Source: Clostridia bacterium (lineage in GTDB: Bacteria > Bacillota > Clostridia > Oscillospirales > Acutalibacteraceae). Taken from it: 64,000 nt of DNA. The notes below the pieces were generated by a model. The model was not told where the DNA came from. It saw nothing but the letters and a program-made list of their open reading frames with translations, and made no database searches. A program made the position numbers and the translations under genes. Location: assembly GCA_017407705.1 (NCBI GenBank), contig JAFQWA010000027.1, positions 1-64,000 of the forward strand, in the 5' to 3' direction. This document shows, in pieces, positions 29,106 to 35,827 of this stretch; positions within the stretch are counted from its first letter, which is position 1, and every line of letters starts with the position of its first letter.

Positions 29106-29960
29106 GTGAAAATAAAATTACCCAAAAAACTACAAAAGACCGTGGATAGATTTACCCCTGTGTTTACACGGATTTCTAATGACAGAATAACGGTTTATGC
29201 GGCGCAGGCATCCTTTTTCGTTATAATTTCCGCCATACCCTTTGTTATGCTGCTCATTCTTATGCTGCAGACCTTTATGCCCGTTGACAAAAATCAGATG
29301 ATGCAGATAATGTATCAGTATTTGCCGCCGTCACTTATTGATTTCGCCACTCAGATAATGGATGAAATTTTTTCAAGAGCACATTTTTCGGTGTTGTCAG
29401 TGGCGGCAGTTGCCATTTTGTGGACCTCATCACGAGGCTTGTCGGGAATAAGTCAGGGTATTAAAAACGTTTACCGTTGTCCGCCTGGGAAAATATTTGT
29501 TTTAGACTATCTGTTTTCACTGCTTTACACTTTAGTTTTTATCGGGATTATGAGTGCGTCGGTGATAATACTGGTTTTCGGCGGTTACATTCAAAACATA
29601 TTGCGTCAGCACTCCGCCGCTTTGGCAGGTATTGTGGATAAGCTGATGTTTTTGCGTGGGGCAATATTCCTTGTTTTCCTCACACTGATATTTATGTTGG
29701 CTTATAAGGTGCTGGGTAAAAGCGAAATGAAGTTTAAGCGGCAGTTTCCCGGGGCTCTGTTTGCCGCTGTGGGTTGGATAGTGTTTTCCTTCGGCTATTC
29801 AATATATATCAACAACTTTTCCAATTACTCCTACGTTTACGGCAGTTTAGCTGCTATAATGCTGTTGATGCTGTGGCTGTATATGTGTATGATAATACTG
29901 CTGCTGGGCGCCGAACTGAATATTATGCTTTATGAAAAAAAGACCTACATTAACACTTAA
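29106..29960 (+). CDS. YihY/BrkB family membrane protein
   Basis: 284 residues from the GTG at 29106 (AGAGGTGA upstream). Six hydrophobic helices. Family features are RITVYAAQASFFVIISAIPF at the first helix, ILWTSSRGLSGISQGIKNVY in the middle, and LWLYMCMIILLLGAELNI at the end. The family was once called ribonuclease BN in error; its members are membrane proteins of unknown activity. Monocistronic. Confidence 0.9.
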   Translation: MKIKLPKKLQKTVDRFTPVFTRISNDRITVYAAQASFFVIISAIPFVMLLILMLQTFMPVDKNQMMQIMYQYLPPSLIDFATQIMDEIFSRAHFSVLSVAAVAILWTSSRGLSGISQGIKNVYRCPPGKIFVLDYLFSLLYTLVFIGIMSASVIILVFGGYIQNILRQHSAALAGIVDKLMFLRGAIFLVFLTLIFMLAYKVLGKSEMKFKRQFPGALFAAVGWIVFSFGYSIYINNFSNYSYVYGSLAAIMLLMLWLYMCMIILLLGAELNIMLYEKKTYINT

Positions 29961-29989
29961 TGTTCTTATCGAAAAAATCGCATAATTTA

Positions 29990-30027
29990 AAATTCCCACA
30001 GACCAAATAAGCGGTTTGTGGGAATTT
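29990..30027 (+). terminator. Terminator of the YihY gene
   Basis: Stem AAATTCCCACA / TGTGGGAATTT followed by CATTTTATC. Confidence 0.75.
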
Positions 30028-30060
30028 CATTTTATCATCAAAAACAGTGGTTTGCACCAA

Positions 30061-30105
30061 GCCTTCTCCAGTGGGAGAAGGTGGCGGCGAAGCCGACGGA
30101 TGAGG
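30061..30105 (+). repeat. Left structured repeat of the DUF559 element
   Basis: Hairpin 1 has arms CCTTCTCC and GGGAGAAGG with loop AGT. Hairpin 2 has arms CGGC and GCCG with loop GAA. It ends ACGGATGAGG. Confidence 0.9.
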
Positions 30106-30107
30106 TG

Positions 30108-30482
30108 TTATCGCACCGGCTTTAAATCGGAAAAATCCAAGTCAAGATTTTTCAAGATATCCTCCGCAACAGCATTAAAGTTTCTTCGTATGCTGTCGTT
30201 TGAATATCGCAAAACGGTGATGTTCCAACAAGCCAATGCGGCATCTCTTTGCCGATCGGCTTCTTTGTGTTCTGGGGCGGTGTGCTGTATTCCATCTATT
30301 TCAATAACAATTTTCTTTTCTGCAATATAAAAATCAACAATATAATTTTCAATATTGTGCTGACGCCTAACATTAAGCGGTAGCCTTTTCAGAAAATCAT
30401 ACCACAAGTGTTTTTCTTCAGGTGTCATATTTTTACGCAGAGTTTGTGCGTTTGACACAAGCTTTTTATTATATGGAATCAT
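30108..30482 (-). CDS. DUF559 (Vsr-like, PD-(D/E)XK-type) endonuclease-domain protein
   Basis: 124 residues, entirely a DUF559 domain. It begins with RKNMTPEEKHLWYDFLKRLP, followed by VRRQHNIENYIVDFYI (Asp50), then KIVIEIDGIQH (Glu61, Asp63, His67), the probable metal-binding core of this Vsr-like fold, and closes with RYSNDSIRRN. DNA cleavage is expected from the fold but not proven for the family. The Shine-Dalgarno GAGGAG overlaps the end of the right-hand repeat, and the stop is three bases from the left repeat, so gene and repeats look like one unit. Confidence 0.88.
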   Translation of the reverse strand: MIPYNKKLVSNAQTLRKNMTPEEKHLWYDFLKRLPLNVRRQHNIENYIVDFYIAEKKIVIEIDGIQHTAPEHKEADRQRDAALACWNITVLRYSNDSIRRNFNAVAEDILKNLDLDFSDLKPVR

Positions 30483-30489
30483 TCTTACT

Positions 30490-30534
30490 CCTCATCCACC
30501 GCTTCGCGGTCCCCCTTCTCCCGCAGGAGAAGGC
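30490..30534 (-). repeat. Right structured repeat of the DUF559 element
   Basis: Inverted relative to the left copy. Hairpin 1 stem is identical (loop TGC). Hairpin 2 has arms ACCGC and GCGGT with loop GAA: sequence changed, pairing kept. It ends GGATGAGG, which serves as the ribosome binding site of the DUF559 gene. Confidence 0.9.
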
Positions 30535-30563
30535 TTTTTTATTGCAACTAAGCTCGTGCCCAT

Positions 30564-34577: not shown

Positions 34578-35174
34578 ATGGGGTATTATGTAAGAAAAAT
34601 TTATATTCAACCACCATTTTTAGAGTTGGAGACAAAGAAAGATTTATTAGAATCTTTCAAACCGTCTGTGCATCTTAGTTCAAAATATAAAAACTGGATA
34701 ACAAAGTTGGATCTTAAAACCTGTTTGATATGCAGATCAATGCACGGTAAGATATATTTAGCAGAGGATTTTGCAATTTTGGAACCGCCTATACATCCAA
34801 ATTGCCGTTGTACAATCGAATTAATGAAAGCAATCACAGTTGGAACAGCCACTATTAACGGAATTGATGGTGCAGATTGGTGGATAAAATTTACTGGCAA
34901 ATTACCGGATTATTATGTTTCTCAAAAGGAATTAGAGAACTTGGGCTGGCGCCGAGGCAATAAAGTCTCAAAATTTATTGAGAAAAAAATGTTGTTTGGT
35001 GGGGTATATAAAAACAAAAACAATCATTTGCCAGAAACAAAAAATCGTATATGGTATGAGGCAGATATAAATTATACGCAAGGAAAGCGAAATAGCCAAC
35101 GTATTTTATGGTCCAACGATGGATTAATATTTGTTACATATGACCATTACCAAACATTTTATGAAATTGTTTAG
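34578..35174 (+). CDS. Barnase-like ribonuclease with phage MuF-type N-terminal segment
   Basis: 198 residues. The C-terminal 100 residues align by eye with barnase: KLPDYYVSQKELENLGW, then WYEADINYTQGKRNSQRILW containing the catalytic Glu and Arg, then YDHYQTFYEI with the catalytic His. The N-terminal part carries TCLICRSMHGKIY and PIHPNCRC, the Cys/His signature at the end of phage Mu F/SPP1 gp7-like head proteins. There is no signal peptide. Two barstar genes follow at once. Fusions of MuF domains to toxins are known from temperate phages, but no other phage gene is present and the MuF part is truncated. Locally AT-rich, suggesting transfer. Confidence 0.88.
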   Translation: MGYYVRKIYIQPPFLELETKKDLLESFKPSVHLSSKYKNWITKLDLKTCLICRSMHGKIYLAEDFAILEPPIHPNCRCTIELMKAITVGTATINGIDGADWWIKFTGKLPDYYVSQKELENLGWRRGNKVSKFIEKKMLFGGVYKNKNNHLPETKNRIWYEADINYTQGKRNSQRILWSNDGLIFVTYDHYQTFYEIV

Positions 35175-35192
35175 AAAAGGAGTTTTTATAAA

Positions 35193-35483
35193 ATGAATAA
35201 AAAAACGGCAATATTGGATTTAACAGGATGTAAATATTTAGGAGAATTGCATCAAAGAATTAAAAGCGCGCTTGATTTTCCCGAATACTATGGAGGAAAT
35301 TGGGATGGCTTGTGGGATTGCCTAAATAGAGATTGCGATGTTAATATTGTGACCATAAAAGGCAGCACAAAAGTTGCGGAAGAATTAAAGTCCAGTGTTA
35401 TAACTATGATTGAAATTTTTGACGAGAACAAGCAATATTGGGCAAATACGGATTACCCGTTTGACTATGAAATTATAAGTTAA
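35193..35483 (+). CDS. Barstar-family RNase inhibitor 1
   Basis: 96 residues. The barstar core is clear: ILDLTGCKYLGELHQRIKSA, then FPEYYGGNWDGLWDCL, including the Tyr and Asp residues that plug the barnase active site. AAAGGAG precedes the ATG, 18 bases after the RNase stop. Expected to neutralise the upstream barnase-like enzyme in the cytoplasm. It is clearly diverged from the second copy. Confidence 0.92.
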   Translation: MNKKTAILDLTGCKYLGELHQRIKSALDFPEYYGGNWDGLWDCLNRDCDVNIVTIKGSTKVAEELKSSVITMIEIFDENKQYWANTDYPFDYEIIS

Positions 35484-35497
35484 AGGATAATAACCTT

Positions 35498-35827
35498 ATG
35501 AACAACATTAATAAACAACAGGAAAACGCATTTAAGCCTATAAAAGAAAATCCAATTATTCTTGATTTTACCGGTTGCAATTACGTTGGAGAAATCCATC
35601 AAGTCTTAAAACAAAAATTTGGGTTGCCCGAATACTATGGAGAAAATTGGGACGCCTTGTGGGATTGCTTAGACGGCAGGTTTGACGAAACTATCAATTT
35701 TAAAGTAGAAATATACGGATACAATACTTTAGATAAAGGAATTCGTGATTATTGTGCTACAATGTTGGAAGTTTTTAATGACGTGGAGAAACAATCCCCA
35801 AATGTAAACTTTGTTATGATTTCATAA
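35498..35827 (+). CDS. Barstar-family RNase inhibitor 2
   Basis: 109 residues. An N-terminal extension of about 16 residues precedes the barstar core ILDFTGCNYVGEIHQVLKQK and LPEYYGENWDALWDCLDGRF. It lies 14 bases after inhibitor 1 and shares the same key residues, but most other positions differ. That suggests an old duplication or separate acquisition, possibly to cover another barnase variant. Confidence 0.92.
   Translation: MNNINKQQENAFKPIKENPIILDFTGCNYVGEIHQVLKQKFGLPEYYGENWDALWDCLDGRFDETINFKVEIYGYNTLDKGIRDYCATMLEVFNDVEKQSPNVNFVMIS

Follow-up and report, generated by a model that had tools for sequence, protein, structure and literature searches.

Hairpin repeats rank with the most frequent non-coding sequences in bacteria, and the closest described systems are the RAYT/TnpA-REP elements (REPtrons). 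In these, inverted hairpin repeats that end in a conserved tail enclose a small gene, gene-less copies are numerous and dispersed in the genome, recognition is structure-aware, and the ends are specific to each lineage of the Y1 HUH tyrosine enzyme. Insertion sequences and MITEs likewise have inverted ends, a target duplication at the orthologous empty site, and internally deleted non-autonomous derivatives. The longest comparable duplications noted are those of the IS1202 group, at 16-28 bp (PMC10132070). CGTC-tagged REPs without a transposase are palindromic repeats scattered through genomes, and no enzyme is known to mobilise them (PMC3733652). A further point of comparison is provided by Vsr and the EDxHD homing endonucleases such as I-Bth0305I, nucleases with conserved acidic residues and a histidine. 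The homing enzymes are encoded within introns or inteins or as free-standing genes, and spread by cleavage of the cognate empty allele, bringing no ends of their own.

Here we describe a DUF559 gene flanked by hairpin repeats in a 64,000-nucleotide stretch of Clostridia bacterium DNA (the window). Gene and repeats probably form one transposon-like element, whose Vsr/EDxHD-fold DUF559 nuclease mobilises the hairpin ends. Such elements measure about 450-570 bases and are laid out as end A (two hairpins and a tail), the DUF559 gene, and end B (two hairpins and a tail, inverted). They share with RAYT/TnpA-REP the small gene between inverted repeats, the conserved tail, the many dispersed gene-less copies and the lineage-specific ends, and structure-aware recognition by DUF559 may be a further likeness. 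Unlike REPtrons, they encode a Vsr/PD-(D/E)XK-like nuclease, carry two hairpins per end, end in the tails GGATGAGG, GAGGGA, GGGTGGT or GGAAGGAG with no GTAG or CGTC tag (which also separates them from the CGTC-tagged REPs), and show target duplications of 25-56 nt. The DUF559 element thus resembles RAYT/REP in its workings yet falls outside that group, since it has neither an HUH enzyme nor a GTAG tag and its target duplications are long. The features listed above for insertion sequences and MITEs are all found here, although a 124-aa protein takes the place of a DDE, HUH, serine or tyrosine recombinase, and the duplications are longer still than those of the IS1202 group. The predicted fold and conserved residues are those of the EDxHD homing endonucleases and Vsr, but the DUF559 gene lies outside any intron or intein, brings both hairpin ends into sites that lacked them, and duplicates the target.

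Architecture of the window element

The features of the locus are as follows.

30108 to 30482, minus strand: DUF559 gene, 124 aa, Vsr/EDxHD-like nuclease (ORF; Pfam PF04480; AlphaFold2 and Foldseek)
30490 to 30536, minus strand: upstream end (sequence reading, inverted-repeat search, folding; conserved in loci L202-L204)
30060 to 30105, plus strand: downstream end, inverted (sequence reading, inverted-repeat search, folding; conserved in L203-L204)
29982 to 30035, no strand assigned: outer terminator-like hairpin ATTCCCACAGACC..GGTTTGTGGGAAT (inverted repeat; carried with the element in L202-L204)
29966 to 30540, minus strand: stretch that the mobile unit probably covers in the clade of the window element (common to L202-L204)

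The left copy, read on the plus strand, consists of hairpin 1 (CCTTCTCC-AGTG-GGAGAAGG, 30062-30081), hairpin 2 (CGGC-GAA-GCCG, 30085-30095) and the tail GGATGAGG (30098-30105). The right copy, on the minus strand, has hairpin 1 at 30514-30533, hairpin 2 (ACCGC-GAA-GCGGT) at 30498-30510 and the same tail at 30490-30497, in the position of the ribosome-binding site of the DUF559 gene. The tail faces the gene in both copies; 2 bases separate the end of the ORF from the left copy, and 7 bases its start from the right one. This pair is the best inverted repeat found in the window search (26 nt, 88%), and on folding both copies beat nearly all shuffles (z -4.2 and -3.7). The exact pattern of the window type occurs nowhere else in the 1.6-Mb genome, and a search of Rfam gave nothing above the gathering threshold at these repeats. 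A preliminary description of the locus had placed the gene between inverted bipartite hairpin repeats and had taken the right tail for a ribosome-binding site; direct reading bears out its sequences and positions, while the terminator-like hairpin at 29982-30035, which belongs to the conserved unit, had been missed.

The assignment of the protein rests on profile and fold together. The ORF matches the Pfam family DUF559 with an E-value of 6e-28 and 97 bits (cut-off 20.6), and the AlphaFold2 model (pLDDT 90.5) finds 3hrl (a DUF559 protein), 3r3p and 1vsr in Foldseek, with Vsr and the homing endonuclease I-Bth0305I, the closest characterised fold, among the matches. All 12 aligned rows (11 distinct sequences) carry E23, D50, E61, D63 and H67. 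In Caulobacter cells that lack a cytosine methylase, the DUF559 protein VsrA is required for a DNA-damage response (PMC12907096), which fits an active nuclease.

The nearest relatives of the window element occur in five MAGs, at 75-84% amino-acid identity. In L202-L204 homology to the window begins at 29960, 29967 and 29989, respectively, and extends to 30540 and no further, at 77-81% DNA identity; the common stretch includes the terminator-like hairpin outside end B. The BrkB-like and P-type ATPase genes that flank the window element are absent beside all three, and the flanks of L202-L204 also differ from one another. Since the unit is shared but the flanks are not, the window-type unit occupies different places. 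At the window copy itself no target duplication was detectable, and no empty site was found among relatives, none of which has both flanking genes in place.

Inverted repeats at other DUF559 genes

The genome of the window holds three DUF559 genes, all of which lie between inverted two-hairpin repeats, each with its own repeat family (GCCTCC..GAGGGAG and GCCTCCCTTGCC..GGAGGGA for the other two). In relatives, too, the repeat family varies gene by gene, while the two copies around one gene match. We reverse-complemented each downstream flank, compared it with the upstream one and counted a score of at least 18 as a match, using 103 DUF559 genes of the same order, all with 200 nt or more on each side, and, as controls, 414 other ORFs of the same loci. 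Matching inverted flanks were found at 43% of the DUF559 genes versus 0.5% of the controls and 6% of random flank pairs, and about 37% of the DUF559 genes in this set had no inverted flanks (score below 12). In a replication on 73 independent genome loci from named records, among them L241 from an Anaerolineaceae bacterium, the figures were 44% versus 7% of random pairs. The inverted flanks at the window gene are therefore more than chance.

The association reaches well beyond the order. Among 20 named loci that lie on plasmids or chromosomes of other groups, nine have inverted flanks (four Deinococcus, two Sinorhizobium, and one each from Azospirillum, Qipengyuania and Picosynechococcus), similar repeats lie beside DUF559 in Chloroflexota, and 2 of 8 usable full-length DUF559 loci on viral contigs have them as well.

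Individual placements were seen in some of these records. In three Deinococcus plasmids (L389, L402, L408) a DUF559 element sits in the same hpa operon, at a different place in each, another element lies between paaD and paaZ (L393), and one in Sphingomonas lies between sufB and sufC (L387). The DUF559 gene of Neisseria gonorrhoeae (L392) is flanked by a direct repeat containing CCCCTCTCCC (alignment score 78), possibly a target duplication.

Co-divergence and structure of the ends

Protein similarity and end similarity are correlated across 65 elements with clear ends (Mantel Spearman 0.44, reached in 0 of 1,000 permutations), and the correlation is 0.28 for pairs below 0.6 protein similarity. 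The preliminary description had called the second hairpin structure-conserving from the two window copies, and the same holds on a larger scale. Among 113 distinct ends, hairpin 1 and the tail are conserved; hairpin 2, by contrast, was usable in 104 ends and has 81 distinct stems among them, with 89% of its outer pairs kept versus 62% when halves are exchanged between ends. Hairpin 2 is accordingly read as structure (a variable stem with pairing kept), and hairpin 1 and the tail as sequence. The placement of A upstream and B downstream is a tendency (upstream, A 30 versus B 18; downstream, B 21 versus A 7), and a strict rule to this effect was dropped.

Gene-less copies and the distribution of repeats

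Gene-less miniatures of about 130 bp, in which A and B are joined by a spacer, occur in the window genome (L038, L364, L366) and in relatives, and solo ends are abundant in genus g40. In two 208-bp copies of genome G016 the first and last parts of the DUF559 gene survive but the middle is missing; being internally deleted DUF559 elements, these copies tie the miniatures to the full element by descent.

Across 295 genomes, a pattern that covers two common repeat families only was present in 79, and the reversed pattern gave zero matches. A strong DUF559 hit was found in 75 of the genomes, 48 of which had the pattern; of the other 220, 31 had it (odds ratio 10.8, p 8e-16). The p-values here and below are indicative only, as the genomes are related and not phylogenetically independent. 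Repeat copies thus track DUF559. The 27 DUF559 genomes without the pattern have to be read against its coverage of only some repeat families, and the 31 genomes with repeats but no strong hit against loss, MAG gaps or another mobiliser.

This last category bears on the most serious alternative, namely that DUF559 is cargo and that a different enzyme, for instance a Y1/RAYT or DDE transposase, moves the A-B ends in trans. It would account for the 31 of 79 repeat-bearing genomes that have no strong DUF559 hit, and miniatures need a trans-acting enzyme anyway. Against it, the repeats show no association with strong Y1_Tnp hits (odds ratio 1.5, p 0.22; for any Y1_Tnp hit 1.9, p 0.03), and any match to Y1_Tnp is absent from 11 of 27 repeat-rich genomes, in comparisons that cover Y1_Tnp among the candidate transposases. 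The ends, moreover, co-diverge with the DUF559 protein, two of the miniatures are deletions of the DUF559 element itself, and the 449-478 bp between the target duplications of L009, L071, L135 and L220 hold DUF559 as their only gene. We regard the cargo explanation as unlikely.

Some miniatures have histories of their own. About ten 130-bp DUF559-type miniatures of G016 (L370-L375, L377, L378) lie inside a larger dispersed repeat, GGGCTGTTGCAC..TGCGACAGC, which seems to have carried them along. A full A-B miniature of G039 (L184:3769-3924) corresponds in the sister G083 to a lone hairpin 1 (L196:19515-19532), perhaps a product of collapse or excision. A different miniature of about 270 bp, with ends TGTCATCCTGAGC..GTCGAAGGATCT (L189:2622-2891, G039), is absent in the sister species (L198, G083), and its target, the small hairpin GCGGCGAAGCCGCG, is duplicated.

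Target duplications and empty sites

Insertion polymorphism is evident at orthologous sites. The L009 element is found in two species of one genus and is absent in two sister species, whose empty sites have no repeat and a single copy of a 39-nt sequence that stands on both sides of the filled site. The L135 element interrupts a gene near its 3' end and has a 45-nt duplication on either side; in three congeners the site has one copy of this sequence and no repeat. L071 (56 nt) and L220 (31 nt) have the same anatomy, in which the gene lies between end A and end B, and 4-7 nt on the A side and 7-9 nt on the B side separate the ends from the duplications. Further duplications were found at L003 of the window genome (25 nt) and at L136 (47 nt). 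The L113 element is absent in G338 and shows no clean duplication. Direct repeats of at least 20 nt free of end motifs flank 9 of 176 DUF559 genes versus 1 of 414 controls. Comparison of sequences thus shows insertion of the whole unit with a target duplication of 25-56 bases, and also ends matched to the protein lineage, derivative miniatures and solo ends.

The empty sites also speak to a homing-like origin, in which REP-type hairpins came first and an EDxHD-like nuclease gene homed into existing repeat pairs, with repair from the filled copy. Such an origin agrees with the resemblance to I-Bth0305I and with the frequency of gene-less repeats. But five orthologous empty sites (L152, L153, L411, L412, L414) have neither gene nor repeats, so that the whole unit with both ends arrived together; a target duplication is present, which homing does not leave; and no site at which a repeat pair had gained the gene only was seen among the orthologous sites compared. 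Homing is, on this evidence, highly improbable. It is scarcely credible that a resident nuclease gene has ordinary terminators or regulatory hairpins that pair by coincidence, even though one tail has the position of a ribosome-binding site and hairpins are common at gene ends, given the flank enrichment over control ORFs, the inverted matched family at each gene, the solo and miniature copies, the target duplications, and the empty sites, the last of which refute this reading for at least two elements.

Duplicated targets tend to be palindromic (z -4.3, -2.7 and -2.4 for three of eight), in a sample of eight that is too small for a claim; hairpin targets would suit a structure-guided nuclease. 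Two other sites were considered. E. coli ycjD was set aside as a population-level empty site, as it alternates with the eef efflux operon and is not clean (PMC12817139), and no clean empty site for the S. meliloti Ak57 copy was found in other S. meliloti plasmids.

Proposed mechanism and significance

If gene and repeats are one transposon-like element, catalysis would fall to DUF559. The protein, a single-domain nuclease of Vsr/EDxHD type, would recognise its own hairpin ends and cut there, and would also cut the target by two nicks about 25-55 nt apart, giving rise to the long duplication. Joining would be left to host replication and repair, and gene-less ends, mobilised in trans, would accumulate as REP- or MITE-like repeats. 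A hydrolytic nuclease is not known to have strand-transfer chemistry, which at the joining step counts against the proposal. The RAYT/REP-like system with an unrelated enzyme suggested in the preliminary description is supported by flank enrichment, co-occurrence, empty sites with duplications and gene-deleted miniatures, and neither of the two outcomes that it had named as fatal, repeats not enriched beside DUF559 genes and absence of insertion polymorphism, was observed; for its other part, recognition and cutting of the repeats by DUF559, co-divergence and the nuclease fold are suggestive.

On balance we favour the wider view that DUF559 nucleases mobilise a class of autonomous DNA transposons that spans phyla and is the smallest of its kind (about 450 bp, a single nuclease of 120 aa, duplications of 25-56 nt), and that they gave rise to many of the ubiquitous hairpin repeats in bacteria of hitherto unexplained origin, e.g., CTTCTCC..GGATGAGG, CTCCCT..GAGGGA and CCCTCACCC..CTCTCCC. 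Gene-less relatives may thus explain some common bacterial repeats. In the open-access literature searched, no link of DUF559 to repeats or mobility was found, and within that literature the enzyme has not previously been tied to mobilising such elements. If true, this view would add a new enzyme class to those of DNA transposition, assign a role to a domain that is widespread but of unknown function, account for part of the bacterial hairpin repeats, and offer a minimal mobile element of about 450 bp with one nuclease gene that is attractive for mechanism work. It makes directly testable which enzyme moves REP-like repeats without RAYT.

A neighbouring gene group

Elsewhere in the window, at 34578-35827, an ORF with a barnase-like C-terminus is followed by two barstar-like ORFs (35193-35483 and 35498-35827), which to the eye look like a toxin with duplicated immunity genes.
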